The notes under the pieces were generated by a model. That model had not been told where the DNA came from and did not search any database. It saw only the letters and a program-made list of their open reading frames with translations. A stretch of DNA of 17,896 nucleotides from Clostridiales bacterium (GTDB lineage: Bacteria > Bacillota_A > Clostridia > Oscillospirales > Oscillospiraceae). This document shows positions 1,563-17,124 of this stretch, one piece after another; the stretch's first letter is position 1, and each line of letters starts with the position of its first letter. A program made the translations under genes and the position numbers. The DNA is taken from positions 1-17,896 of the forward strand of contig JALFGI010000051.1 in the NCBI GenBank assembly GCA_022777455.1, given 5' to 3'.

Positions 1563-2046
1563 ACCCATATTCCTCCATTTTGCCTTTCAGCGTTTGTCTG
1601 AGCCGCATCATTCGTGTTCGGACAGCCGGGGCGGTTCTCCCGGTTAGTTGAGAGATCTCTTGTAAAGTAAGGCCGGAAAAATAGTGAAGAATTAGCATCT
1701 CACGATCAAAGGATGGCAGCGTATTGATAATGTCCCACAGGCACCGATTCCGCTCGTTCAGAATGTAGGTTGTTTCAGGGGTTGTACCATCACTGATCGT
1801 GGGGAAGGATTCGTCATAAACCTCCCGGCTATGTTTGCGAAGATAATCAATCCATAGATTTTTGCAGACCTTCATCAGCCAGTACCGGAAAGATGTTACA
1901 TCATTGGGTAAGCTCAGGTAGGCCTTTATAAAAGCGTCTGTCGCAATGTCTTCCGCAAGCTGCTGTCTGCTGCATAGTCCGATGCAGTATAGAACCGCAC
2001 TGCGGTAATACTTGCGATATAGATCCTCCCAAACATCTGCATCCAC
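1552..2046 (-). CDS. ECF-type RNA polymerase sigma factor
   Basis: Small sigma-70 factor of 164 residues, a typical ECF length, that redirects RNA polymerase to stress-type promoters. Region 2 occupies roughly residues 5-75 (LAEDIATDAFIKAYLSL, then FRYWLMKVCKNLWIDYLRK), and region 4 residues about 105-158 (LPSFDREMLILHYFSGLTLQEI, then the recognition helix near RTAPAVRTRMMRLRQTL). The start is GTG: an in-frame stop lies two codons upstream and there is a near-perfect ribosome site, AAAGGAGGTGAT, 8 nt before the GTG. The stop overlaps the start of the anti-sigma gene. A matching ECF promoter sits immediately upstream, so autoregulation is likely. Confidence 0.93.
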   Translation of the reverse strand: MDADVWEDLYRKYYRSAVLYCIGLCSRQQLAEDIATDAFIKAYLSLPNDVTSFRYWLMKVCKNLWIDYLRKHSREVYDESFPTISDGTTPETTYILNERNRCLWDIINTLPSFDREMLILHYFSGLTLQEISQLTGRTAPAVRTRMMRLRQTLKGKMEEYGYGI

Positions 2047-2071
2047 GACTTATCATCACCTCCTTTACTTA

Positions 2072-2100
2072 GAAAACGGATAACATCCTAAAACGTTACA
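2072..2100 (-). promoter_or_regulatory. Candidate autoregulated ECF promoter of the sigma/anti-sigma operon
   Basis: On the minus strand TGTAAC (plus 2095-2100) is followed after exactly 16 bp by CGTTTTC (plus 2078-2072). This matches the layout of Firmicutes ECF promoters (TGAAAC/TGTAAC, about 16 bp, CGTN). The AT-rich stretch 2100-2118 upstream could act as an UP element. Transcription would begin near 2067-2070, directly before the ribosome site, leaving a leader of about 20-25 nt. The pattern is seen in the sequence; the role is inferred. Confidence 0.6.
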
Positions 2101-2183
2101 AATTTTTTAAATTATTTCATGTGCTTACCGCGCTGCTGAGGCAAGCCGGGGAGCTGAAAGGCGGCCCCCCAGGTTTGTGGCAC

Positions 2184-2251
2184 ATGTGAATCGGGTATAA
2201 AATACGCACCCATGTGGGGAAGGATTTCGTCCTGCCGCACATGGGTGTTTT
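2184..2251 (-). terminator. Hairpin terminator with conserved flank (copy 2)
   Basis: A 10-bp inverted repeat pairs 2207-2216 with 2238-2247, with an inner AGGA/TCCT pairing. It starts 12 nt after the stop codon of the regulator gene at 2259 and is followed on the minus strand by GCGTATTTTATAC, fitting a terminator for that gene. On the plus strand TTTT follows the stem, so it may work both ways. The flank ATGTGAATCGGGTATAA (2184-2200) matches the flank of the hairpin at 27-69 at all but one of 17 positions, although the stem sequences differ. Confidence 0.7.
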
Positions 2252-2258
2252 GCCCATC

Positions 2259-2843
2259 TCAGATTTTCATTTTGAACAGCCCGTGGCGGTTGCAGCAGGC
2301 GTAGAGCCAGCCGTGGCCCCGGAGCTGGAACCGGGCTTCCGCCGGGCCTTCGGGGTAGAGCTTGGCAAACTGCACCCGGTCAGAGCTGACGAAGGCCAGG
2401 AAGGAAACATAGTGGGCTTTGGTCATGGGGTGGGAAAGGGTGACGAAGGTCTCGTCCTCCACCCGCTCCAGGCGGATTTCGTGTTCCCCCTCCGCCGTCT
2501 CCGCTTCCAGGGGCGGCAGGGCCAGACCGCAGCAGTTGATCACCGCGTCCCCCATGGAGGTGAGCACGTTGCCGCAGATGGGGCAGACATAGAATTTGGA
2601 CCGCAGCACATTGCAGCCGGTGTTCCGATTGACGATCTGTTCGCCGTTCATCAGCTCCATCACGGAGACACCCAGGCTCTTTGCCAGAGGCTCCACCAGG
2701 GAAATGTCCGGCAGCCCCTTTCCTGTCTCCCATTTGGAGACCGCTTTGTCGCTGACCCCGATTTTTTCCGCCAGCTGGGCCTGGGTCAGCTTTCTTTCCT
2801 CCCGGAACCGCTTGATGGCCGGGCCGGTGATGTATGAATTCAT
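2259..2843 (-). CDS. Xre-type HTH regulator fused to desulfoferrodoxin/superoxide reductase domain
   Basis: A 194-residue fusion. Residues about 4-62 are an Xre/Cro helix-turn-helix (LTQAQLAEKIGVSDKAVSKW, then PDISLVEPLAKSLGVS). Residues about 83-108 form a desulfoferrodoxin rubredoxin-like iron site with CPICGN (C87, C90) and NCCG (C104, C105). The remainder matches the superoxide reductase catalytic domain: H121, H138 and H144 in SHPMTKAHY, and C184 and H187 in CCNRHGLF, which are the five expected iron ligands. The residue before the first His, usually a Lys that helps catalysis, is Glu here. The start is ATG at 2843, with AAAGGAG 8 nt upstream; a GTG three codons earlier overlaps that ribosome site. 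It has its own promoter. It probably acts as a cytoplasmic superoxide/redox-responsive regulator, an enzyme, or both; HTH-Dx-SOR proteins are a known rare architecture. Confidence 0.88.
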   Translation of the reverse strand: MNSYITGPAIKRFREERKLTQAQLAEKIGVSDKAVSKWETGKGLPDISLVEPLAKSLGVSVMELMNGEQIVNRNTGCNVLRSKFYVCPICGNVLTSMGDAVINCCGLALPPLEAETAEGEHEIRLERVEDETFVTLSHPMTKAHYVSFLAFVSSDRVQFAKLYPEGPAEARFQLRGHGWLYACCNRHGLFKMKI

Positions 2844-2869
2844 AGAATCCACTCCTTTCTGTTGCCACC

Positions 2870-2898
2870 AGCATACCAGAGCAAAGGGAATTTCGCAA
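2870..2898 (-). promoter_or_regulatory. Sigma-A-type promoter of the HTH/superoxide reductase gene
   Basis: On the minus strand TTGCGA (plus 2893-2898) and TATGCT (plus 2870-2875) are separated by exactly 17 bp. The inferred start of transcription is near 2863, about 20 nt before the ATG. The small palindrome CTACGCTTGGTAG (2900-2912) lies just upstream of the -35 box. Confidence 0.62.
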
Positions 2899-2925
2899 CC
2901 TACGCTTGGTAGAGAGACTGCGGGG

Positions 2926-3132
2926 AAATTGTAATTTGGCGGGCAGATACGGCAGCCCCCCTTGGCTCTCCCTTTGGGAGAGCTGTCAGCCGAACAGGCT
3001 GACTGAGAGGGTGTCGCAGGGAGGACAACAGCATCCTTAAATCAGCAAACCGTGTACCCTCTCAGTCTGCCCCTTGCGGGGCAGCCAGCTCCCCCATAGG
3101 GGGAGCCAAGGGATGCGTCCAAACAACAATTT
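2926..3132. repeat. R2, MITE-like inverted-repeat element (arms swapped)
   Basis: Same family as R1, with ends AAATTGTAATTTGGCG and AAACAACAATTT. Here the arm types are exchanged relative to R1: the left arm carries CTCTCCCTTTGGGAGAG and CAGCCGAACAGGCTG, the right arm carries CTGCCCCTTGCGGGGCAG and CTCCCCCATAGGGGGAG. It fills the gap between the terminator of the rsmA operon and the promoter of the HTH/superoxide reductase gene. Confidence 0.88.
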
Positions 3133-3150
3133 ACGCCTATCCCCCGTTGG

Positions 3151-3183
3151 GAAAATGAAAAACCTGCCCGCTGGGGGCAGGTT
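3151..3183 (-). terminator. Intrinsic terminator of the rsmA-yjjG-SPL operon
   Basis: On the minus strand a 9-bp GC-rich stem AACCTGCCC/GGGCAGGTT (3175-3183 with 3161-3169, 5-nt loop) is followed by TTTCATTTTC. The stem begins inside the TAA stop codon of the radical SAM gene, a very compact operon end. Confidence 0.9.
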
Positions 3184-4045
3184 AAAAAAGGGACAGCTGC
3201 TGGTCCTTTTCTTCAAAGGTCATCATGTAATCGAAAATACGGTCATTGTTGTGCCAGATGCCGTATGCCTCGCAGGTTTCGTGGAACAGCTGCCAGAGCT
3301 CCCGGAACCGGGGGCTGGGGAGCTCGTAGGCGTTGCCGTAGGTCCGGATATACTGCTCCTTCAGGCCGGGGAAGTGCCGGTCCAGGGCGGCGTAGTAGTA
3401 TTCCCGGTCCCCGTCCCGGAGGGTCAGGCCCATGCCGAAATTGATGATGCCCTTCACTCCTGCTTCCCGGCAGTATTCCAGAATGCCAAGGATGTTCTCC
3501 GGGGTGTCGTTGAGCCAGGGAAGCAAAGGACTGAGCCACACCACCGTGGGTACCCCGGCCTCCCGGAATTTCCGCAGCGCCTCCGCCCGCTCTGCCGTGG
3601 TGCTCACCCGGGGCTCCACAATGCGGCATCGCTTTTCGTCGTAGGTGGTCAGGGTCATCTGCACCACCGCTTTGCCCCGGTCATTGATTTCCCGCAGCAA
3701 GTCCAGATCCCGGAGGATCCGGGCGGACTTGGTCTGGACCGCTGCGCCGAAGCCGTAGCGATGGATCAACTCCAGAGCGCCCCGGGTGAGGCGGAGGGTT
3801 TCTTCCAGGGGCATATAGGGGTCCGACATGGCCCCGGTGCCGATCATGCACTTTTTCCGCTTGGCCTTCAGCGCCTGCTCCAGAAGGGGCAGGGCGTTTT
3901 CTTTTACCTCGATGTCCTCGAAGGGGTGGTTCATTTGGTAACACAGGCTCCGGGAATCGCAGTAGATGCACCCGTGCTGGCAGCCCCGGTAGAGGTTCAT
4001 GCCGTTTTTGGCGGAAAGAATGGATTTTGCCTGAACGAAGTGCAT
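3182..4045 (-). CDS. SPL-family radical SAM protein (photolyase-like)
   Basis: A 287-residue protein with the radical SAM iron-sulfur motif CQHGCIYC near the N-terminus (C22, C26, C29), preceded by MNLYRG as is usual in this family. Later landmarks are GTGAMSDPYMPLE, KSARILRDLDLL and TLTTYDEKRCRIVEPR, typical of COG1533 proteins related to spore photoproduct lyase. Most members of this broad group have no proven substrate, so DNA repair should not be assumed. The start is supported by AAGGAGG 9 nt before the ATG. It is the last gene of the operon, 12 nt after the nucleotidase gene, and its stop is buried in the terminator stem. Confidence 0.88.
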   Translation of the reverse strand: MHFVQAKSILSAKNGMNLYRGCQHGCIYCDSRSLCYQMNHPFEDIEVKENALPLLEQALKAKRKKCMIGTGAMSDPYMPLEETLRLTRGALELIHRYGFGAAVQTKSARILRDLDLLREINDRGKAVVQMTLTTYDEKRCRIVEPRVSTTAERAEALRKFREAGVPTVVWLSPLLPWLNDTPENILGILEYCREAGVKGIINFGMGLTLRDGDREYYYAALDRHFPGLKEQYIRTYGNAYELPSPRFRELWQLFHETCEAYGIWHNNDRIFDYMMTFEEKDQQLSLF

Positions 4046-4057
4046 GGCGGAGCCTCC

Positions 4058-4744
4058 TTACAGAGTTTGAAGAAGAGATTCCAGCTGGGAGAGGGCTTCT
4101 ATTTCGTAGTCCGCCGGGATATCCGCCCGGGCTTCCAGATGGCCGGGGTTGACCCAGCAGGTTTTGATCCCCGCCCGGATGCCCCCCAGAATGTCGGAGG
4201 TCAGGCTGTCGCCCACCATGATGGCTTTTTCCGGGTCAAAGTCGGGAATCTGTGCAAAGCAGGTATCAAAGTATTCCCTGGAGGGTTTGTTGAAGCCAAT
4301 CTCCTGGGAGACGAACACCTTTTCGAAATAGGGGTACAGCCCCGCGCTGGTGAGCCGGGAGTGCTGCACCGAGGCGGTGCCGTTGCTGGCCAGGAACAGC
4401 CGGTATTTCTCATGCAGCCGCTCCACCGCTTCCTGGGCCCCGGGGAGAAAATAGTGGCCGATGCCCAGATTACTCTCATAGGCCCGGGTGACGGCCACCG
4501 CGTCCACCGGGTGGCCCAGCTCTGCAAACAACACCCGGAAGCGGCCCTCCTGGACCTGATCCCGGGTCATCTCTCCCCGTTCCAGGGCTTCCCAGTGCCG
4601 GCGGTTGATGATGTGGTAGCGGGTCAGCACCGCATCCGTGGGTTCCAGGCCGAAATCCCGGAGGGTTTTGGAAAGGGCGATGCGCTCCGCTTTGTGGAAG
4701 TCCAGGATGGTGTCATCCAAATCCAGAAAGAGAAATTCCATCAT
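4058..4744 (-). CDS. yjjG: YjjG-family HAD nucleotidase (noncanonical pyrimidine 5'-nucleotidase)
   Basis: A 228-residue HAD-superfamily phosphatase. Motif I is FLFLDLDDTILDF with nucleophile D8 and acid D10, motif II is LFLASNG near residue 120, the motif III lysine lies in GFNKPSREYF, and motif IV is MVGDSLTSDILGG. The early LDFHKAE and the INRRHW segment fit the YjjG group, which dephosphorylates noncanonical pyrimidine monophosphates and so cleans the nucleotide pool; exact substrate is inferred. The ATG overlaps the rsmA stop codon by 4 nt (ATGA), a translational-coupling arrangement; a second ATG follows at once, so the start could be one codon later. Confidence 0.85.
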   Translation of the reverse strand: MMEFLFLDLDDTILDFHKAERIALSKTLRDFGLEPTDAVLTRYHIINRRHWEALERGEMTRDQVQEGRFRVLFAELGHPVDAVAVTRAYESNLGIGHYFLPGAQEAVERLHEKYRLFLASNGTASVQHSRLTSAGLYPYFEKVFVSQEIGFNKPSREYFDTCFAQIPDFDPEKAIMVGDSLTSDILGGIRAGIKTCWVNPGHLEARADIPADYEIEALSQLESLLQTL

Positions 4745-5610
4745 CCGTTTTCCCTCCGGCGGTAGATTTCGTTGGCGATTTTTGCAAATTCCGGGATGCC
4801 CAATGTCTCACCCCGGACATTTCCCGAAAAACCGCAGGCGGCGATTGTCTCCTCTGCTCCCGCTTTGCCCAGCTCCGGAAAGCCGGAGGCCAGACCGTTA
4901 GAGAGCTTTTTCCGCCGCATGGCAAAGCTGGCGCGCACCACCCGGAAGAATAGCTCGGGGTCCGCAATGTCCCAGGGCCGCTCCTTCCGTACCCGGAGGG
5001 TAATTACAGCGGAGGTCACCTTGGGCTGGGGCAGGAAGCAGTGGGCCGGAACGTCAAACAGCAGCTCCGGCTCTGCGTAATACTGGCAGAACACGGTGAA
5101 GGCGCTGTAGTCCGCCGACCCGGGCCGGGCGGCGATGCGCTGGGCCACCTCCTTCTGCACCATCACGGTGACGGATTCAAAGCAATCCGCTTCCAAAAGG
5201 GCGGTGAGGATGGGGGAGGTGATGTAGTAGGGCAGATTGGCGCAGGCCATGGGCCGCAGGCCGGGGAGCTTCTCGGCAACCAAAGCTGGAATGTCCTGCT
5301 TCAGCACATCCCCCCAGAGAATCTCCACATTGGGGCAGTCCGTCAGGGTGATGTCCAGGATGGGCTTCAGCCGGTCGTCCACCTCCACGGCGCAGACCCT
5401 CCCTGCCCGCGAGGATAGCTGCTGGGTCAGCGGCCCGATGCCGGGGCCGATTTCCAGCACGCCCACGGATTTGTCCACCCCGGATTCCTCCGCGATGGAT
5501 GCCGGCACCCAGGGGGCAATGAGGAAATTCTGCCCCTTGGCCTTGGAAAAGTGGAACCCATGGGTGGCCAAAAGGGGCTTCATCACCTGAATATCGCAAA
5601 CATTGATCAT
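4741..5610 (-). CDS. rsmA: 16S rRNA (adenine-1518/1519-N6) dimethyltransferase
   Basis: RsmA (KsgA) dimethylates two adjacent adenines in helix 45 of 16S rRNA using S-adenosylmethionine, a late step of small-subunit assembly. The 289-residue length is normal. Visible motifs are KGQNFL (residues 25-30), the SAM loop LEIGPGIGPLT, the acidic strand end VCAVEVDD, GDVLKQD, and the catalytic NLPYYIT segment about residues 120-130, followed by the usual VTVMVQKEVAQRI and CFLPQPKVTSAVI. The ribosome site upstream of the ATG is weak (AAAGG about 10 nt away). It leads an operon with a 4-nt overlap to the nucleotidase. Repeat R3 and the G5/3D gene lie upstream. Confidence 0.96.
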   Translation of the reverse strand: MINVCDIQVMKPLLATHGFHFSKAKGQNFLIAPWVPASIAEESGVDKSVGVLEIGPGIGPLTQQLSSRAGRVCAVEVDDRLKPILDITLTDCPNVEILWGDVLKQDIPALVAEKLPGLRPMACANLPYYITSPILTALLEADCFESVTVMVQKEVAQRIAARPGSADYSAFTVFCQYYAEPELLFDVPAHCFLPQPKVTSAVITLRVRKERPWDIADPELFFRVVRASFAMRRKKLSNGLASGFPELGKAGAEETIAACGFSGNVRGETLGIPEFAKIANEIYRRRENG

Positions 5611-5659
5611 TTTTCTGATACCTTTCTGTGTGACCCAACCGCCGGATTTGTTGGGCGTT

Positions 5660-5870
5660 AAATTGTAATTTGGCGTACCGGAACCGGCGCACCCCTTGGC
5701 TCCCCCTATGGGGGAGCTGGCTGCCCCGTAAGGGGCTTACCTGAGAGGGCAACACAGTGTGTAAGGACGCTGTTGCCTTCTCTGCGGTACCCTCTCAGTC
5801 AGCCTGACGGCTGCCAGCTCTCCCAAAGGGAGAGCCAAGTGGCCGTATGCAGGCCTCATAAATTACAATT
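5660..5870. repeat. R3, MITE-like inverted-repeat element
   Basis: Third copy, in the R1 arrangement: left arm CTCCCCCTATGGGGGAG with GGCTGCCCCGTAAGGGGC, right arm CAGCCTGACGGCTG with CTCTCCCAAAGGGAGAG. Ends are AAATTGTAATTTGGCG and AAATTACAATT. The left arm has CTTACCTGAGAGGG in place of CAGACTGAGAGGG, so the second hairpin is degraded. It occupies most of the gap between the G5/3D gene's 3' end and rsmA's 5' end. Confidence 0.87.
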
Positions 5871-7131: not shown

Positions 7132-8751
7132 CTACAGCAGCTTCAAACTGCCGGAGGTGATGCGTTCGCCGCTGATGCGGTCGAAGAGCATGATCTCATT
7201 GCCGGAGACGTTCAGGCGGATCTTTTCCCCCAGCCGGAACAGGGTGTTGCCGAAGACCACGCCGGTGAGCAGGAAGTTCCCCACCCGAATCTTGATGGTG
7301 GATTCCATGCCTGTGGGCATGGCGCCGTAGATTTCCCCTTCCAGGGCGCCGTTGGGGTCGATCTGCAAAAATTCGGGACGGATGCCCAGCACCAGGTCCT
7401 CATTGGTCAGCACCGGCTCTTCCATCATGGCGTCGTCCTCCTCCACCACCTTGGAGATGTGGTAGCGGAACACCTCGTCCTTGTTGCTCTTTTCCACATA
7501 GCCCTTCCGGGCGGCGGCGGTTTTCAGGGCGGCGGCCTTTTCTTCCCGGCGCTGATCCCGTTGGCGGAACCAGGCTTCCAGGTCCAGAGGCGTTTCGGGA
7601 ACGAACTGGGCTTGGGCGCCTTCCAGCGTGGTCAGGCTGACGGTGCCGTCCGGGGCGGCTTTGCCCTTGGCCTCCACGAAATTGATGGAGGGGTTGCCCA
7701 CGAAGTCCGCAACGAACAGGTTGTTGGGCTTGCCGTAGACGGTGAGAGGGGCGTCATACTGCTGCAGAACGCCGTTGTTGATCAGGCAAATCTGGGTGGC
7801 CAGGGTCATGGCCTCCATCTGGTCGTGGGTGACGTAGACGAAGGTGGAGCCGGTTTCCAGGTGGAGCCGCTGCAGCTCATACCGCATTTCCAGCCGGAGC
7901 TTGGCATCCAGGTTACTCAGGGGCTCATCCATGAACAGCACCAGGGGCTCGGGGGCCAGGGTCCGGGCGATGGCCACACGCTGCTGCTGGCCGCCGGAAA
8001 GCTCTGCGGGATACCGGTCCATGAACATGCTGATTTTTACAATCCGGGACACCCGACGCACCGACAGGTCGATTTCCTCTTTCGTCAGCTTCCGCACGGA
8101 CACGGCGGGCTTGCCGTCTCTCACAATCTGGAAATCCTCGGTCATTCCCGTGGCTTTGGCGGCGGCCACCTTGTCCTTCAGGGCCTTGATTTCGCCGGAT
8201 AGGTCCTTGCCCTGCTCCAAATGGTAGCCGAAGAGCTTCTTGGCGGTGTACTGGGAGATGGTAAAGGCATCGATCAGCTTGATGATGGCCTTCTTTTCGT
8301 CCAGCTTGCCCTTCTTGTCCCGGCACTCCTCCAGGACCTTCACCACATCCTCCGGCCGGGCCAGGAGCTCTGCCAGCCGGGCGGCGTTTTTGGCCTCGAA
8401 ATTGTATTCCGGCATCTCCTCTTTGATGTTGGACAGACCGAAGGAGATGTTCTGATACACGGTCATGTTGGGCCACAGGGCATAGTTCTGGAACAGGAAG
8501 CCCACCTTTCGCTTGTTGGCGGGGATGTTGATGCCCAGCTCGCTGTCGAACACCACCTTGTCGCCGATGGTGATGCGGCCGCTGGTGGGGGTCTCCAGGC
8601 CGGCGATCATCCGCAATGTGGTGGTTTTGCCGCAGCCGGAGGGGCCCAGGAGCGTGACGAATGCGTTATCCTTGATGACCAGGTCCAGGTTGTCTACCGC
8701 GTAGAACTTGCCCCAGTGTTTGGTCACGTGTTCCAATCTGATTTCAGGCAT
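7132..8751 (-). CDS. ABC importer ATPase with large insertion in the helical domain
   Basis: ATP-hydrolysing subunit of the importer encoded with it, of the CUT1/PotA/FbpC type. From the chosen start it is 539 residues, against about 350-380 for the family. Walker A is GPSGCGKTT (36-44), the Q-loop FQNYALWPNMTV (Q88), the signature LSGGQQQR (251-258), Walker B LVLFMDEPLSNLDAK and the H-loop VTHDQMEAM. Q-loop and signature are about 163 residues apart, versus roughly 50 in MalK, so about 110 charged, helix-prone residues are inserted. A second Lys/Glu-rich stretch interrupts the C-terminal TOBE region. The ATG at 8751 has GGAGG 8 nt upstream; a TTG five codons earlier overlaps that site. The permease stop is only 4 nt before the start. 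The substrate is unknown. Confidence 0.92.
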   Translation of the reverse strand: MPEIRLEHVTKHWGKFYAVDNLDLVIKDNAFVTLLGPSGCGKTTTLRMIAGLETPTSGRITIGDKVVFDSELGINIPANKRKVGFLFQNYALWPNMTVYQNISFGLSNIKEEMPEYNFEAKNAARLAELLARPEDVVKVLEECRDKKGKLDEKKAIIKLIDAFTISQYTAKKLFGYHLEQGKDLSGEIKALKDKVAAAKATGMTEDFQIVRDGKPAVSVRKLTKEEIDLSVRRVSRIVKISMFMDRYPAELSGGQQQRVAIARTLAPEPLVLFMDEPLSNLDAKLRLEMRYELQRLHLETGSTFVYVTHDQMEAMTLATQICLINNGVLQQYDAPLTVYGKPNNLFVADFVGNPSINFVEAKGKAAPDGTVSLTTLEGAQAQFVPETPLDLEAWFRQRDQRREEKAAALKTAAARKGYVEKSNKDEVFRYHISKVVEEDDAMMEEPVLTNEDLVLGIRPEFLQIDPNGALEGEIYGAMPTGMESTIKIRVGNFLLTGVVFGNTLFRLGEKIRLNVSGNEIMLFDRISGERITSGSLKLL

Positions 8752-8755
8752 GGTG

Positions 8756-10585
8756 TTAACCTCCAATTCCTTCGTCCAGGCTTGCGCCGGTGATCTTGTT
8801 GACCAGTGTGTTGCACACCAGAATGGTGATGATCAGCAGCAGGTTGATGCCGCTGGAGAATGCGTACAGGCCCATTTCGTCGAAATAGTCCAGGGTGGTG
8901 GAGAGGATGAAGCCCTGGACGCACAGCAGCATGAACAGGCTCAGTTCTCTCAGGCAGGTCATGAAGGGCAGAAGGTACCCACTGATGATGGAGGATTTCT
9001 GAATGGGGATGATGATCCGGGTCATCCGCTTGATCCAGGGGATGTCCTGGATGATGGCGGCCTCCTCGATCTCACCGGAGAGCTGGAGCATGGAGTTCAG
9101 GGCGTTCCGGCTGGCGAAGGGGATGTATTTGATGGTGCCCACGATGATCAGCAGGGTGTAGGTATTAAACAGGTTCAGCCTTTCCGAGGAGAAGAGGATG
9201 AAGAAGGCGGCGCCCACCGCCAGCGACGGCATCAGATAGGGCAGGAAGGCCATGGCGTTGACATAATTCGCCCATTTGCTCCGCCGCTGCTTGCTCACCG
9301 CGTAGCCGATCAGGGTGCCAATGGTGCCCGCCAGCAGCGCGCAGGCGATGCTGACCCACATGGTACCGGCAAAGGCATGCCAGATGGTTTCGTTGTACAG
9401 GATGCCCTTCTGGCCGTACATGCCGTTTTCGGTGATGTTCTCCTTGGTGATCCACCATTTGGCGGTCAGGTTGTCCGGGTTGCCGGTGTAGAGGAAGGAG
9501 TAGTCACCGGGGTTGGGCAGGAAGGTCTCAAAGGCAAAGGAGACGATGGGGAAAATGCTGGTGAAGAAGGTGATGATCACCAGCACAATGGCGATGGCGT
9601 ACTTCCCCACCTTGCCCAGATTGATTTTGGAAATCTGGCCGGACTTGCCGGTGACGGTGGTGTAGTTCTTCCGGCTGGTCAGCGACAGCTGGTTGAGCAG
9701 CATGATGGCCACGCCGAACAGCATCATGATGATGGCCAGCACCGAAGCCTCACCGGTGTACTTGGAGTTCATGGACACATACTTGGTGGACAGGGTGGTG
9801 AGCCCTAAGTAATGGGGCACGGGATAGGAGCCCATAGCGCTGCCGAACACCAGCAGGATGGTGGAAAGAATGGCGGGCTTGACCATGGGCAGGGTGATTC
9901 TCGTCATGGTCTTCCACTTGGGGGTGTCCAGGATGGTGGCGGCCTCCTCCAGGTTGGCGTCCATGTTTCGGAAAATGCCGCCGATGAGGATGTAGGCGAA
10001 GGGGGCATAGTGCAGTCCCAGCACCATCAGGCTGGGGAACAGCCCCTGGCACCACCATTTTGGCATGGTAATGCCGAACAGGGACGCAAGCAGGCCATTG
10101 GAGGTGCGGGTGACGGCGTTGGAATTGAACAGGTTCTGCCACACCACCGCCAGGGTCCACTGGGGCATGATGTAGGGGAAGATGAAAATGGAGCTCAGGT
10201 ATTTCCGCCAGGCCAGGTTGGTGCGGGTGATGAGGAAGGCGAAAATGCCGCCGAAGAGAATGGAGACCACGCAGGTGCCCACCGCCAGATAGACGGTATT
10301 CAGCAGGGGGGTCCACAGATTCTTTTTGGCCATGCGGCTCGTGAACAGGTCGATGTAGTTCACCAGGGTGTAGCCGCTGGTTTTGCCTGTCAGGTGGGCG
10401 TCAATGGTGCCGGGGTGGATGCTCAGGGTATCCTTCACAATGGCCACAATGGGGGCCACGGTGGTGATGGTGACCACGATGCCCAGCACCAGCAGAATCA
10501 CGTTGTAGGGCTTACTGAAATAGGTGCCCAGTTTGTTCAGCCAGATCCGCAGGGGACTGGCAGTGAGCGGATTGTTTTGTTTCAT
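8756..10585 (-). CDS. Fused double-domain ABC importer permease (COG1178/ThiP-like)
   Basis: A 609-residue inner-membrane protein joining two permease halves, so one chain could form the whole pore. Each half carries an EAA loop that docks on the ATPase: EEAATILDTPKWKTMTRITLP in shortened view begins near residue 217, and EEAAIIQDIPWIKRM lies near residue 518. About twelve hydrophobic segments are evident. Fused permeases of this kind serve iron(III), thiamine, phosphonate and related importers; the substrate cannot be fixed here. The start is ATG at 10585 with AAAGGAG 6 nt upstream; the frame stays open for 119 further codons upstream only because repeat R4 lacks stops in it, and that extension looks non-genuine. 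The ATPase gene follows after 4 nt. Confidence 0.93.
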   Translation of the reverse strand: MKQNNPLTASPLRIWLNKLGTYFSKPYNVILLVLGIVVTITTVAPIVAIVKDTLSIHPGTIDAHLTGKTSGYTLVNYIDLFTSRMAKKNLWTPLLNTVYLAVGTCVVSILFGGIFAFLITRTNLAWRKYLSSIFIFPYIMPQWTLAVVWQNLFNSNAVTRTSNGLLASLFGITMPKWWCQGLFPSLMVLGLHYAPFAYILIGGIFRNMDANLEEAATILDTPKWKTMTRITLPMVKPAILSTILLVFGSAMGSYPVPHYLGLTTLSTKYVSMNSKYTGEASVLAIIMMLFGVAIMLLNQLSLTSRKNYTTVTGKSGQISKINLGKVGKYAIAIVLVIITFFTSIFPIVSFAFETFLPNPGDYSFLYTGNPDNLTAKWWITKENITENGMYGQKGILYNETIWHAFAGTMWVSIACALLAGTIGTLIGYAVSKQRRSKWANYVNAMAFLPYLMPSLAVGAAFFILFSSERLNLFNTYTLLIIVGTIKYIPFASRNALNSMLQLSGEIEEAAIIQDIPWIKRMTRIIIPIQKSSIISGYLLPFMTCLRELSLFMLLCVQGFILSTTLDYFDEMGLYAFSSGINLLLIITILVCNTLVNKITGASLDEGIGG

Positions 10586-10638
10586 GGCACGCTCCTTTTG
10601 AATCATGCGCGGATCGGGTTTTGCCAGACAGACGATCG

Positions 10639-10850
10639 ATTGTAATTTTTCGCACTGGCGCGGCAGCGCCTCTTGGCTCTCCCTTTGGGAGAGCTGGCTG
10701 CCCCATAGGGGCAGACTGAGAGGGTACCGTACCCAATGAGACGATCCTAATCCTTCAAATGGTGCCCTCTCAGTCAGCCTGTTCGGCTGACAGCTCTCCC
10801 AAGGGGAGAGCCAAGGGGTGCCGCCGTATCTGCCTGCCAAATTACAATTT
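10639..10850. repeat. R4, MITE-like inverted-repeat element inside the importer locus
   Basis: Fourth copy, with ends ATTGTAATTTTTCGC and CCAAATTACAATTT. It is a mosaic: the left arm joins CTCTCCCTTTGGGAGAG to CTGCCCCATAGGGGCAG, while the right arm has CAGCCTGTTCGGCTG and CTCTCCCAAGGGGAGAG. It separates the binding-protein gene and its terminator from the permease start, and its hairpins may add to the drop in transcription there. Confidence 0.87.
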
Positions 10851-10882
10851 ACCATACCGCCAACAGCCGATGGGCGCATGGG

Positions 10883-10930
10883 ATATAAAACGGCGCCTCC
10901 GGACCGTTGTTTACCAAATCCAGAGGCGCC
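10883..10930 (-). terminator. Terminator or attenuator after the solute-binding protein gene
   Basis: On the minus strand an 11-bp stem with one mismatch (10920-10930 with 10892-10902, containing GGCGCC on both sides) has a 17-nt loop and is followed by GTTTTATAT. It begins about 37 nt after the binding-protein stop codon. Partial read-through here would give much binding protein and less permease/ATPase, a common need in ABC importers. Confidence 0.72.
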
Positions 10931-10966
10931 TGATGGATTCATCAGATGACCGATGTAAGACTTTGA

Positions 10967-12295
10967 TTAGCCGGCGCTGTACTTATCCAGCATCTCGATC
11001 CAGCTGCCCACGGTGAAGGCGACGGAAGCGCAGTACTCGGGATCCTCCAGAACCAGCTTGCCGTCGGTGGTCCACCAGTCGTAGCCGGCGTCGTTCTTGG
11101 CAGCGTAGGCAACGGTGCCGTCCTCGGCCATGCCGCCTTCCATGTGATGGAACTTGGCCTCGTTGTCAGCGGCGACCACGGGGTTGGAGGAGTAGCCGCC
11201 CATGTCCTTGCCCCAGGCGGAGAAGCCGTCCACGGTGCAGGTCATGTAGGCGATGAAGGCGCAGGCAGTCCAGGGCAGGGGAGAGTTGTCGGTGACGAAC
11301 AGGTAATGGCAGTAGCCATAGCCGCCGATGCCCTGGTAGCCATCCTGGTAGGCGGCGACCTTGATGTTGTTCACGGAGACGGAGTCGGACTCTTCCACGC
11401 TGCGCAGCTTGGAGTAAACCAGCAGGCCGAACTGATCGGTGGCGGACTTGTCAACCAGGGTGTTGCAGATGGGGCCGTCGTCGGTCTGAGCGGAGTAGCT
11501 CTCCACCCACAGCTTGATCCAGGCCAGCGCGTAAGCGCCGTCCTCGCCCAGGCCCAGATCCTCGGCGTCAACTTCCATCTCCTCGATTACGGGAGCGAAG
11601 TAAGCCTGCTCCTCGGCGGGCAGGGCCTCGTAAGCTTCCCGCAGCCAGGCGGCGTAGGTATCTTCCGTCAGCATGTACAGGAAGTTCTTGCCCACGATTT
11701 CGGAGTCGATGTCCATGAACAGGCCATGCTCGCCCTCGGCCACGAAGTCCCAGCAGTTGTCGTAGGTCTTGTCACCGGTGCAGTTGTACTCAAAGACCTT
11801 GTTCAGGGTCTGCAGGGGCAGGAAGCCCTGGTAGTCAGCGGCGGTGGTGCCGTTGGCCTCGGCCCAGTCCTTGGGAATGAAGGTGTCCAGAATGCCGGTC
11901 TGGACCATCTTGGACTGGATCTGGTTGCCGTCCTGGATCAGGGTCATGGCGAAGGTGCCGGTGCCCTTCAGGGAGTCGGCGGTGAGCTGATCGAAGATCT
12001 TGTTGTTCTTGGGCTGCTGCCACTCGAACTCCATGTTGTAGCTGGGGTCGATGGTCTGCAGGTAGGCGATGAACAGAGGCAGGGCGCTCTTGCCACGGCT
12101 GGAGTTGCCCACGCCGTAGAACATCTTGCCGTTGGATTCCTCAATGGCCTTCTTGGCCAGCTCTTCCAGGGTCATGTTCTGAGCCTCGGCGATGATGGCC
12201 TTCACGTCGGTCTCGGCGGATGCCCGGCCGGCGCCGCACAGGGCCATGGCCAGCACCATGCAGACCACCAGAACCATGGAAATGATTTTCTTCAT
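10967..12295 (-). CDS. Secreted solute-binding protein of the ABC importer
   Basis: A 442-residue extracellular binding protein that would deliver substrate to the permease downstream. Residues 1-27 form a signal peptide with a signal-peptidase-I site ASA|ET. There is no convincing lipobox: the only cysteine at the right place follows Leu (MALC), where Gly/Ala/Ser is expected, which is odd for a Gram-positive importer protein. The mature protein is acidic, rich in Tyr, Trp and Gly, with segments such as MFYGVGNSSRGKSALPLF and YGYCHYLFVTDNSPLPWTACAF suggesting a type-2 periplasmic-binding fold; the ligand is not evident. The start has AGGAGG 8 nt upstream. A good promoter precedes it and a terminator follows it. 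Confidence 0.85.
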   Translation of the reverse strand: MKKIISMVLVVCMVLAMALCGAGRASAETDVKAIIAEAQNMTLEELAKKAIEESNGKMFYGVGNSSRGKSALPLFIAYLQTIDPSYNMEFEWQQPKNNKIFDQLTADSLKGTGTFAMTLIQDGNQIQSKMVQTGILDTFIPKDWAEANGTTAADYQGFLPLQTLNKVFEYNCTGDKTYDNCWDFVAEGEHGLFMDIDSEIVGKNFLYMLTEDTYAAWLREAYEALPAEEQAYFAPVIEEMEVDAEDLGLGEDGAYALAWIKLWVESYSAQTDDGPICNTLVDKSATDQFGLLVYSKLRSVEESDSVSVNNIKVAAYQDGYQGIGGYGYCHYLFVTDNSPLPWTACAFIAYMTCTVDGFSAWGKDMGGYSSNPVVAADNEAKFHHMEGGMAEDGTVAYAAKNDAGYDWWTTDGKLVLEDPEYCASVAFTVGSWIEMLDKYSAG

Positions 12296-13415: not shown

Positions 13416-14417
13416 ATGAAAAAAATACACTTCTTATCCATCCTTCTGGCCCTGCTTCTGCTCTCCGGCTGTGCTTCCGGGGCGGTGGACGCCGGGATGC
13501 TGCCCCAGCCGGGCAGCCGGTTGGTGGTTTACACCTCTCATAAGGAGGAGGTGTACCGGCCCATCATCCGGGAATTTGAGGAGCGGACGGGCATCTGGGT
13601 GGAGCTGGTCACCGGGGGGAGCAACGAGCTGCTGCAGCAGCTGGAAGCGGAAAAGGACAATCCCAAAGCGGACGTGATGTTCGGCGGGGGCGTGGAAAGC
13701 CTGGAAAGCTACCGGCACCTGTTCCGCGCCGTCCGGCGGGGGGAATCCGACGCGGTGACCGCAAGCCTGCGCCAGAGCGAGGACAGCTGGGCTCCCTTCT
13801 CCGCCCTGCCGGTGGTGCTGATTTACAACACCAAGCTGGTGGATCCCCGAGATCTCACCGGCTGGCAGGACCTGACCCGGGAGAAATTCCGGGGGAAGAT
13901 CGCCTTTGCCGATCCCACCAGATCCGCCTCCTCCTTCACCGCCCTGGTTACCCTGCTTTCTGCCTGCGGGGAGGAAACCCTGGCCCGGGTGGCCCGGAAC
14001 CTGGACGGCTGCCAGCTCAGCTCCTCCGGTGAGGTGCTCTCCGCAGTGGCGGACGGCTCCTGCCTGGTGGGGGTGACCTTGGAGGAGACCGCGTTGCAGC
14101 GCATCGCCGCCGGGAACAACCTGGCCCTGGTCTATCCCGCCGAGGGCACCAGCTGCATCCCCGACGGCACCGCCGTGATTGCCGGCGCGCCCCACCCGGA
14201 AAACGCGGAGCGCTTTCTGGAATTCACCCTCAGCCGGGAGGTGCAGCAGCTGCTGGGAGAGCGGTTTTTCCGCCGCAGCGTCCGCAGTGACGTGACGGTG
14301 CCCGCCTCCCTGCCCGCCATGGAGGAGCTGAAGCTGGTGGACTACGATGTCCGCTGGGCCTCGGAGAACCGGGAGGAGCTTCTTTCCCGGTGGGCCGCTG
14401 CGCTGGAGGGAGCATGA
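13416..14417 (+). CDS. AfuA/FbpA-type solute-binding lipoprotein, probable sensor subunit
   Basis: A 333-residue lipoprotein: signal peptide with lipobox LSGC (Cys 19). The mature part has the COG1840-type pattern, VVYTSHKEEVYRPIIREFEERTGIWV at its start in pieces, then LPVVLIYNTKLV, GKIAFADPTRSASSF and a C-terminal helical region. Relatives bind iron(III), sugar phosphates, phosphoglycerate or aminoethylphosphonate. No permease or ATPase follows; instead a histidine kinase starts 1 nt after the stop codon. This suggests a receptor that passes ligand binding to the kinase, as PgtC is thought to do for PgtB. The start has GGAG 5 nt upstream; no convincing own promoter is seen, so it may be transcribed from 12460 or from within the repeat. 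Confidence 0.85.
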   Translation: MKKIHFLSILLALLLLSGCASGAVDAGMLPQPGSRLVVYTSHKEEVYRPIIREFEERTGIWVELVTGGSNELLQQLEAEKDNPKADVMFGGGVESLESYRHLFRAVRRGESDAVTASLRQSEDSWAPFSALPVVLIYNTKLVDPRDLTGWQDLTREKFRGKIAFADPTRSASSFTALVTLLSACGEETLARVARNLDGCQLSSSGEVLSAVADGSCLVGVTLEETALQRIAAGNNLALVYPAEGTSCIPDGTAVIAGAPHPENAERFLEFTLSREVQQLLGERFFRRSVRSDVTVPASLPAMEELKLVDYDVRWASENREELLSRWAAALEGA

Positions 14418-14418
14418 C

Positions 14419-16113
14419 ATGAGAATTCTGAAAAAATCCTTCCGCAACCGCCTCTTTGCCGCCATGCTGCTGTGCTCTTTGATCCCGCTGCTGATCTGTA
14501 CCGTGCTGATGGTGCAGATCACCCGGCTGCGGCTGGACAGCAAGACCCGGGAGGACGGGGCCGAGCAGTCCGCCGCCCTGCTGGGGAGCATGGATTTCAT
14601 CAGCAATGCCCTCACCTCCGCCGCCGCCCGACTGCAGGACACGGAGACGGCAATCCACGGCCTGGGGGCGGGAATCGGGAACCGGCTGCAGATAAACAGC
14701 CTCCTGTTCGATGCCACGGACACCTTCCGGAATCTGGCGGTGTTCGACCTGTACGACAGTGCGGGTCAGTGCCGCTATTCCACCCGGGGCACCGTATCGG
14801 CGGACCTGCGCACGGACTGGGGGGTGCTCTACGGCGCAGCCCAGACCCCGGGAGTGCCTGCGTACTATGCCACGGAAGACCCCGCCGACACCGCCTCCCC
14901 TTTGCTCATGGGGGCGGTGCAGCTCCGGGCGGAGGACGGCTGCCGAGGGTTCTTGGTGATGCGGCTGTACACCGCCGGGTTCCACGGCATGCTGGACGGC
15001 AAATACGCCCAGAGCGATGTGATGATTCTCAGCCGGTTCTTCCGGCCCATCTACAGCTCCCAGTCCTACCTGACCCAGACCCTGGCCCCCCAATTGCGGC
15101 AGCAGCTTCTGGGCGGGGGGATTCCGGATGACGCGGAGTACGTGTACACCGTCTCCTGCCATGAGCCCACGGGGCTTTATCTGGTGCTGCGTCAGCCCCG
15201 ACTGTTCACCGCCCGGACAGTGGGGATGCTGTACACCGCCGGTATCCTGTGTACGCTGGTGTGTGTGCTGATCTCCGTGCTGGTGAGTCTGCCCATGAGC
15301 CGCCAGATCACCTCCCCCCTGCGCCGGCTGATGGGAGCCTTCGACAAGGTGCAGCAGGCGGACCTGGAGACCCAGCTGAGCGTGGAGGGAACCGACGAAT
15401 TCGCCCGGCTGGCCGCCCGGTTCAACCAGATGGTGCTGGCTCTGAAATCCAACCGGGAGGAGCTGATCTCCAACCAGCAGGAGCTGAACGAGGCCCAGAT
15501 CCGGATGCTCCAGGCCCAGCTGAATCCCCATTTCCTGTGCAACACCCTGGATACCATGAAATGGATCAGCAAAATCAACAAGGTGCCCCAGGTAGCGCTG
15601 ATGTCCACCAATCTGGCGGACATTCTGCGGTTTTGTATTTCCGCCGAGGAATTTGTGCCCCTGTACCGGGAGCTGGAAATTCTGGAGCGGTATATCGAGA
15701 TTCAGAAAATCCGGCTCAGCGACGATTTCGCCTTCCAGCAGGAGATTCCGGAGGAGCTTTACGACTGTCTGGTGCCCAAAATGATCCTGCAGCCCATTGT
15801 GGAGAATGCCATTCTCCACGGCCTGAACGGGGTATCGGGCAGCGTCATCCGGGTCACCGCCCGGGAGGAGGGGGGAAACCTTCTGCGCATTACCGTGACG
15901 GACAACGGCAGAGGCTTCCCTGAAGGAATGCTGGGCCGCCCCTACAGCCGGGACAAGGGCCTTGCAAAAGGCCACCTGGGATTATATAATGTAGACATGA
16001 TTTTAAGGAGAAATTTCGGCGAGGACTACGGCTTGATTCTGGAGCCGGGGGACGGTGGCGTAGGGGCCTCCGTCACCGCCGTCCTGCCCATCCGGTATGA
16101 GGAGGAAACGTAA
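14419..16113 (+). CDS. YesM-type sensor histidine kinase
   Basis: A 564-residue membrane kinase. The first membrane helix spans about residues 12-33, followed by an outer sensor region of about 230 residues, a second helix about 266-290, a HAMP linker (SRQITSPLRRLMGAFDKV) and a short coiled coil. The kinase core has QLNPHFLCNTLD with the phospho-accepting H371; most relatives have Tyr where Cys stands. The ATP-binding part has the N-box ENAILHG and the glycine loop DNGRGFPEG, then GHLGLYNV. The chosen ATG has GGAGG 9 nt upstream, inside the lipoprotein gene; an in-frame ATG 24 codons earlier lacks support. Kinase and regulator genes abut, so they are expressed together. Confidence 0.93.
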   Translation: MRILKKSFRNRLFAAMLLCSLIPLLICTVLMVQITRLRLDSKTREDGAEQSAALLGSMDFISNALTSAAARLQDTETAIHGLGAGIGNRLQINSLLFDATDTFRNLAVFDLYDSAGQCRYSTRGTVSADLRTDWGVLYGAAQTPGVPAYYATEDPADTASPLLMGAVQLRAEDGCRGFLVMRLYTAGFHGMLDGKYAQSDVMILSRFFRPIYSSQSYLTQTLAPQLRQQLLGGGIPDDAEYVYTVSCHEPTGLYLVLRQPRLFTARTVGMLYTAGILCTLVCVLISVLVSLPMSRQITSPLRRLMGAFDKVQQADLETQLSVEGTDEFARLAARFNQMVLALKSNREELISNQQELNEAQIRMLQAQLNPHFLCNTLDTMKWISKINKVPQVALMSTNLADILRFCISAEEFVPLYRELEILERYIEIQKIRLSDDFAFQQEIPEELYDCLVPKMILQPIVENAILHGLNGVSGSVIRVTAREEGGNLLRITVTDNGRGFPEGMLGRPYSRDKGLAKGHLGLYNVDMILRRNFGEDYGLILEPGDGGVGASVTAVLPIRYEEET

Positions 16114-16854
16114 GTGCTGAAGGTGCTGATCGTGGAAGATGAAGAGATGATCCGCAAGGGCATCGTGCTCACGGTGGACTGGGCCGCTCTGGACTGCGTG
16201 GTGGTGGGAGAAGCCGCCAACGGGTTGGAGGGCCTGGAGGCCGCCCGGCGGCTGGAGCCCACCCTGATCATCACCGACCTGAAAATGCCCCAGATGGATG
16301 GCATCGAGATGCTCCGTGCCCTCCGGGAGGAAGGCTGCAAGGCCTATGTGATCATCCTCACCGCCTACGATCATTTTGCCTATGCCCAAAGCGCCCTGCG
16401 GCTGGGGGCGGTGGACTATCTGCTCAAGCCCTTCCACGACGGGGATCTGGAGAATGCCATCATCCAGCTGCGCAGCCGGATGGAAAACAAGCCCGCCGCC
16501 CTGCCCATCGACATTCCCCGCAAGGGCGACAAGAGCCGCTACGTTCTGGAAGCCATGGCCTACATCAGCCAGCACTACAACGAGCCGGACATCAGCGTGG
16601 GCACCGTGGCCCAGAGCCTGCACATCAGCGAGGGGTACTTAAGCCACACCTTTAAGAAGGAGACGGACTACACTCTGCTGGGCTATCTTACCCGCTACCG
16701 CATCCACAAGGCCATGGAGCTATTAAAGGACTGCCGGGTGAAGGTCTACGAGGTGGCCGAGCAGGTGGGCTACCGGGACATCGCCTATTTTTCCTCCACC
16801 TTCAAAAAATACACCGGCATTTCCCCTTCGGAATACCAGCTCACCTGCCGGTAG
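16114..16854 (+). CDS. YesN-type response regulator with AraC DNA-binding domain
   Basis: A 246-residue regulator. The receiver domain (about 1-120) has the acidic pocket E8/D9, phosphorylation site D55 in ITDLKMPQMDG, T/A switch region in LTAYD, and the KPF lysine. Residues about 145-246 form an AraC-type pair of helix-turn-helices (DISVGTVAQSLHISEGYLSHTF and KVYEVAEQVGYRDIAYFSSTF, then the family ending GISPSEY). The start is GTG, directly after the kinase TAA, with AGGAGG 8 nt upstream. It is expected to be phosphorylated by the adjacent kinase and to activate nearby transport genes, the divergent importer being the natural candidate. Confidence 0.94.
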   Translation: MLKVLIVEDEEMIRKGIVLTVDWAALDCVVVGEAANGLEGLEAARRLEPTLIITDLKMPQMDGIEMLRALREEGCKAYVIILTAYDHFAYAQSALRLGAVDYLLKPFHDGDLENAIIQLRSRMENKPAALPIDIPRKGDKSRYVLEAMAYISQHYNEPDISVGTVAQSLHISEGYLSHTFKKETDYTLLGYLTRYRIHKAMELLKDCRVKVYEVAEQVGYRDIAYFSSTFKKYTGISPSEYQLTCR

Positions 16855-16876
16855 TGGGATAAGGTATCAAACTTAT

Positions 16877-17083
16877 AAATTGTAATTTAGCGTTCCGGAA
16901 CCGGCGCACTCCTTGGCTCCCCCTCTGGGGGAGCTGGCTGCCCTGTAAGGGGCGCCCCTGAGAGGGTAATGCCGGTGTTGTTGCCTTCTCTGCGGCACCC
17001 TCTCAGTCAGCCTGTTCGGCTGACAGCTCTCCCAAAGGGAGAGCCAAGGGGCGCTGCCGTATCTGCACGCTAAATTACAATTT
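16877..17083. repeat. R5, MITE-like inverted-repeat element with near-perfect ends
   Basis: Fifth copy and the best preserved at its ends: TAAATTGTAATTTAGCG faces CGCTAAATTACAATTTA as a perfect 17-bp inverted pair. Left arm: CTCCCCCTCTGGGGGAG and a decayed GGCTGCCCTGTAAGGGGC. Right arm: CAGCCTGTTCGGCTG and CTCTCCCAAAGGGAGAG. It fills the gap between the response-regulator stop and the next gene, where no separate terminator with a T-tract is visible. Confidence 0.9.
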
Positions 17084-17124
17084 AATCGTATCACATCACC
17101 CGACGAAATTTTACGAGGTAACCC

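Follow-up and report, generated by a model that had tools for sequence, protein, structure and literature searches.

What does a bacterium gain by joining a DNA-binding domain to a superoxide reductase (SOR)? The question is raised by one gene in a 17,896-nucleotide stretch of Clostridiales DNA (hereafter the window), whose translation contains an Xre helix-turn-helix (HTH), a Cys4 desulforedoxin (Dx) site and an SOR site with all five ligands (Table 1). Comparison with related sequences leads us to favour, at a probability of roughly 0.55, the reading that the protein would be an autogenous redox regulator with its own gene as main target. A working enzyme that controls its own synthesis, a sensor of metal availability and a regulator with a wider set of targets are weighed below where the evidence bears on them.

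Table 1. Features at the fusion locus, in window coordinates
Feature	Position	Strand	Basis
Strong hairpin past the stop codon, then a short U-rich stretch; possible terminator	2207..2247	minus	fold of 2185-2262
HTH-Dx-SOR fusion gene, 194 aa + stop codon	2259..2843	minus	translation, 121-protein alignment, model pLDDT 92.6
Dx-SOR module, residues 81-194; ligands H121, H138, H144, C184, H187; fusion-typical K142, R186	2262..2603	minus	
Desulforedoxin-type Cys4 site C87-x2-C90 ... C104-C105, residues 87-106	2526..2585	minus	all four Cys in 121/121 close relatives
Xre/Cro-C1 helix-turn-helix domain, residues 1-68	2640..2843	minus	
-10 hexamer TATGCT	2870..2875	minus	sequence, family spacing
-35 hexamer TTGCGA; first three bases common to operator motif	2893..2898	minus	sequence; 17-nt family spacer
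Predicted operator CTACCAAGCGTAGGTTG: imperfect CTACG-N3-CGTAG dyad (one mismatch) + GTTG	2896..2912	minus	

The fusion, its relatives and its surroundings

The open reading frame, its strand, the five SOR ligands and the four Dx cysteines were all correctly assigned in the original prediction. The centre II ligands (four His, one Cys) align with those of solved SOR sequences, and the Dx motif reads C87-P-I-C90 and C104-C105, with 13 residues between the two halves. Loss of the ligand set in close homologues would have spoken against the original prediction; among 121 proteins (the query and the 120 relatives listed out of 8,000 matches), 119 retain the five SOR ligands and every one the four cysteines. 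In Pfam, HTH_3 matches the protein with 59 bits and Desulfoferrodox reaches 20.5 bits, just below its 22.2-bit cut-off; in a set of 113 diverse relatives, the latter family is recognized in 95 at E<=0.001. The predicted model (pLDDT 92.6) resembles solved SORs as well as P22 c2, the structural match of the HTH, and SOR/desulfoferrodoxin structures stand at the top of both structure comparisons.

The available part of the SORGOdb article (2011) names a class HTH-Dx-SOR, in which 19 proteins were placed, and gives neither an operator nor a function for it, nor any comment on its Lys (PMC3116461). As described there, the class is like the window protein in having an N-terminal helix-turn-helix followed by desulforedoxin and SOR modules, and differs in its Dx motif, with a spacing of 15 residues against 13 (PMC3116461). 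The window protein has the N-terminal HTH, the CxxC-x(n)-CC motif and the centre II ligands by which this class is recognized. Desulfoferrodoxins, or 2Fe-SORs, from D. baarsii (2ji1) and D. desulfuricans (1dfx) have both metal-ligand sets and the fold in common with the fusion, which differs by its extra Xre domain, a loop about 3 residues shorter, the absence of Glu-Lys, a Lys/Arg between the second and third His, and CN(R/K)HG in place of CNLHG. The SOR of T. pallidum (1y07) is a chain of 123 residues, too short for an Xre domain. Compared with repressors of the P22 c2 and lambda cI type, the remainder of the fusion is a metal module. HppE, an Xre-cupin iron epoxidase, likewise combines Xre with a mononuclear iron protein, but the structures match in the HTH only and its iron domain is unrelated to the SOR-type iron module. 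TrtA of T. denticola resembled a relative at first but was rejected; this Xre protein is 104 residues long, and its authors could not assign what follows residue 80 (PMC12724145).

The fusion is a known class and is common in its lineage. The original prediction had called it rare, a view that does not survive the genome counts: the nearest genome (L003/G001, whose protein is 91% identical to the window fusion) belongs to a family in which 57 of 200 genomes carry a fusion and to a genus in which 36 of 101 do. Stand-alone SORs occur in 97 genomes of the family set and 29 of the genus set, together with a fusion in 31 and 9, respectively, and the two types show no association in either set (Fisher p 0.35 and 0.65), many of these genomes being drafts in which absences weigh little. 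Fusions were assigned with a profile of our own at 95 bits (100 in the family and genus scans) and stand-alone SORs at 50 Pfam bits; partial matches in G164, G229 and G253 were counted in neither group. A scan of genome contigs yielded at least 581 matching stretches; since either an HTH or a C-terminal pattern sufficed for a match, other Xre proteins may be among them. The titles of the best 80 name Clostridia or Bacillota, and some Treponema or Spirochaetales. A viral origin was rejected, as the viral scan gave two loci matching the HTH only. Separately, an unverified phage-labelled faecal record (L308, MT835563.1, 3001-3582) holds a 60% identical HTH-Dx-SOR fusion.

No enzyme partner adjoins the fusion in the window, as judged from open reading frames and Pfam families, in agreement with the original prediction. 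Across 77 related loci, counted without the window, none of the neighbouring families, those of metal transport among them, turns up in more than 6. No conserved operon partner or divergent target was found: the next gene follows at 50 nt or less in the same orientation in 5 of 74 loci, and the previous gene is divergent in 33 of 76 (crude ORF calling, other loci than the window in both cases). Upstream, the fusion is preceded by a radical SAM gene in the same orientation. This gene forms a block with an HAD gene and one read as KsgA-like, which the window shares with L003; the downstream gene is not shared. Past the stop codon, the 2185-2262 fold has -31.3 kcal/mol and a z of -4.8; the hairpin was not among the results of a terminator scan, and no RNA family reached its gathering score in the window. 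Beyond the hairpin follow an ECF sigma factor and a Sigma_reg_C protein, whose overlapping genes (387-2046, minus) probably encode a sigma/anti-sigma pair.

Elsewhere in the window, we read from the ORF list an ABC transporter block that includes a binding protein (7132-12295, minus) and another binding protein accompanied by a sensor kinase and response regulator (13416-16854, plus), with Pfam applied to 13416-14417 only. A dispersed intergenic repeat occurs at 141-196, 2923-3117, 5658-5752, 10636-10729, 10755-10853 and 16876-17085, in both orientations, with matches of up to 108 nt and 93% complementarity. Several copies end in AATTACAATTT, one lies directly upstream of the fusion's predicted operator, and the repeat looks like a MITE-type element.

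A palindrome at the fusion's own promoter

The original prediction also gave the fusion its own promoter, which is borne out and strengthened by a conserved dyad and by the -35/-10 geometry. The window gene and its relatives are preceded by the consensus CTACG-N3-CGTAGGTTG. With at most 3 mismatches out of 14 positions, the dyad is present in 134 of 137 fusion promoters, among them that of the window, against 13 of 2,740 shuffled sequences, and with at most one mismatch in 86 of 137 against 0 of 2,740. These promoters are upstream regions of at least 100 nt, taken after setting aside 23 of 178 fusion ORFs that lack a clear start, duplicates and one promoter shorter than 100 nt; the control consisted of 20 rounds of single-base shuffling. 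From the outermost to the innermost pair, the arms are complementary in 127, 87, 117, 122 and 108 of the 137. The position of the dyad centres on 66 nt ahead of the start, its first base falling 61-91 nt ahead in 129 of 134 cases. In the window, 2896-2912 is the sole match with fewer than three mismatches, the fifth base being permitted to be C or G, a choice fitted to the window copy.

The dyad runs into the -35 box, the closing TTG of the motif being the beginning of that box. A TATAAT-like -10 element (at most two mismatches) stands exactly 17 nt past TTGnnn in 110 of 131 fusion promoters, three with too near a start being left out, against 147 of 2,620 shuffles. A generic promoter scan of window positions 2000-3200 returned no promoter. 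The site has drifted in the nine diverged fusions examined, to 2-3 mismatches and forms such as CTACGGAGCGTTTCTTG, and none with at most 3 mismatches was found within 300 nt upstream of the distant fusions of Acetoanaerobium (41% identity) and Monoglobus (34%). A dyad-symmetric site at its own promoter, here a predicted one, is what an autogenous Xre regulator should possess. Assuming that transcription starts 7 nt past the -10, the dyad would be centred at about -43. Since lambda cI activates PRM from about -43, activation of the promoter by the fusion would be at least as likely as repression.

The operator appears specific to the fusions. It was absent upstream of stand-alone SORs, none of 50 such regions having a match with fewer than 5 mismatches. 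Among 30 loci with a fusion-type HTH in seven genomes, 7 of 7 fusions have a site with 0-1 mismatch and 0 of 23 other Xre loci have one with at most one mismatch; one of the latter comes to 2 mismatches and three to 3. The search was then made genome-wide with one consensus and up to 2 mismatches in 30 genomes other than the window's own, 29 of which carry a fusion. It gave 27 sites with at most one mismatch, 22 of them at a fusion-type start (in one, in G214, the contig end cuts the fusion after 40 residues). Two of the five others lie in long open frames (G155, G084) and one in a repeated element (G193), while one precedes only a 68-aa ORF (G214) and one a gene read as MerR-type (G227).

These five sites, together with the restriction of the search to a single consensus and 2 mismatches, leave some room for a wider oxidative-stress regulator whose other sites would be too degenerate to detect. 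Treponema ruminis, where a 2-mismatch site precedes an 86-aa ORF, points the same way. We consider such a regulator very improbable: at up to 2 mismatches there are 68 sites, of which 25 stand at fusion starts, the other 43 comparing with 125 for a reversed-pattern control, and six of ten non-fusion sites inspected fall within open frames of at least 150 codons, two more being copies of one repeat. The absence of the site from stand-alone SOR promoters argues likewise, although the fusion may have weak extra targets. On contig 29 of G003 (L298, ~4740-4967), a 62-aa HTH fragment lies near a 2-mismatch operator copy and is perhaps a decayed second fusion.

Residues around the iron site

Stand-alone SORs have (E/Q)KH(V/I/L)P in 51 of 51 sequences, and the original prediction had rightly noted that the usual Lys before the first His is missing in the window protein. 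There, G119-E120 and not Glu-Lys precedes the first His. Lys occurs there in 0 of 121 close relatives and in 1 of 159 distinct fusion domains (L028); it is also found in the distant Monoglobus fusion (L306), which belongs to neither set and joins L028 in having E-K-H, with the same loop length. The proposal that Glu takes the place of Lys fared less well. HMMER pairs E120 with K48, whereas a MAFFT alignment of 206 sequences puts the stand-alone E-K in columns that the window protein lacks, so that substitution of Lys by Glu or deletion of a Glu-Lys pair depends on the aligner. Nor is the Glu a special conserved residue: the residue preceding H121 in the 121 closest proteins is E in 51, D in 28, A in 23, S in 11 and another in 8, and Glu occupies the position in 52 of the 159 fusions. 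Fusions have about 3 residues fewer than SOR in the loop ahead of this His.

Other charges are gained. In the turn that links two ligand His, position 142 is K in 148 and R in 11 of the 159 fusions, whereas 47 stand-alone SORs have E (22), P (13), D (7) or A (5) and Lys/Arg in none; position 186, next to the Cys ligand, carries R or K in 125 of 159 fusions and Leu in 47 of 47 stand-alone SORs. In a tree, fusion and stand-alone SOR domains separate cleanly (support 1.0, branch 1.68). This split and the swaps at both positions indicate that the fusion clade altered the charges around its iron, a change that may tune sensing or restore catalysis. All five ligands are retained in 147 of the 159 fusion domains, H121 being lost in seven and H187 in five, which means that not every member needs an intact iron site. 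Among individual proteins, L030 and L042 have His instead of the second Cys of the Dx CC pair (SCHGIT), and the Monoglobus pectinilyticus fusion, from a plasmid record (1486-2067), has Asp instead of the last His ligand (CSRDG) and adjoins a gene of the ZIP metal transporter family.

The same residues suit a working superoxide reductase that controls its own synthesis, much as PutA, an enzyme of proline use, regulates its own. The guiding positive charge would then have moved to K142 and R186, as the swaps in 159 of 159 and 125 of 159 fusions would allow, and the invariant Lys/Arg between the ligand His could equally be such a relocated charge. The ligand set is complete in most members, and no stand-alone SOR was seen in 26 of 57 (family) and 27 of 36 (genus) fusion genomes, counts that drafts inflate. 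Partial loss of the Glu-Lys pair is no proof of lost activity, since an SOR lacking the conserved Glu reportedly reduces superoxide. Against this stand the Glu-Lys and the Pro two residues past the first His, which all 40 aligned stand-alone SORs possess and the window fusion lacks, and the independent presence of the two types, from which the fusion neither replaces nor accompanies a stand-alone SOR. On balance an active enzyme seems a possible but rather unlikely account.

Alternatively, DNA binding might be governed by whether iron or zinc fills the Cys4 and His4-Cys sites, and not by their oxidation. The ligand positions are much more constant than the catalytic loop, in line with a metal-availability sensor, but the gene neighbourhoods offer no recurrent metal-transport partner and the ZIP transporter beside one distant member is a single case, which makes this reading improbable. 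That the iron site senses superoxide instead of catalysing its reduction is plausible, given that the ligands are nearly always kept, Glu-Lys nearly always lost and an invariant Lys/Arg gained between the ligand His.

A putative one-gene redox switch

The palindromic site at the fusion's own promoter in most sampled relatives suggests a one-gene oxidative-stress switch that would mainly control itself. The one-protein switch put forward in the original prediction therefore stands in part: control of the own promoter is well supported by the conserved, fusion-specific operator, while rarity and a special role of the Glu fall away. A vestigial HTH is unlikely, since a matching site is retained. 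In the autogenous regulator that we favour, the Xre domain, presumably dimeric, would bind a CTACG-N3-CGTAG site that adjoins the -35 box of the fusion gene itself and has its centre near -43. The Dx-SOR module has retained its Fe(His)4Cys and Cys4 sites and lost the Glu-Lys pair of the enzyme, and we infer that its iron would receive the signal. On meeting superoxide, peroxide or O2, the iron module would switch state and alter DNA binding, and the cell would thereby reset the amount of fusion protein made, upwards or downwards.

A more specific version may be formulated for the clade that bears the operator, in which an SOR enzyme would have become a sensor. Here the lost Glu-Lys loop would be the one that guides superoxide and aids the exit of peroxide, and its loss, with the fixation of Lys/Arg, could leave a long-lived ferric or peroxo state that drives the Xre dimer at -43, the place of a class II activator. 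The result would be a one-gene oxidative switch with positive feedback in gut Clostridia and Treponema. We regard this full scenario as speculative and, taken as a whole, unlikely.

In the literature searched, which left subscription journals mostly aside, we found neither a description of the dyad operator or of the charge swap, nor a study of the function or operator of any HTH-SOR protein. Most of what is known of superoxide sensing comes from SoxR-type Fe-S regulators. If oxidants are read through the iron site of a superoxide reductase, the chemical route would be different, in a fusion that is common in anaerobic gut bacteria, and the predicted operator and the charge swap make the sensor hypothesis directly testable.
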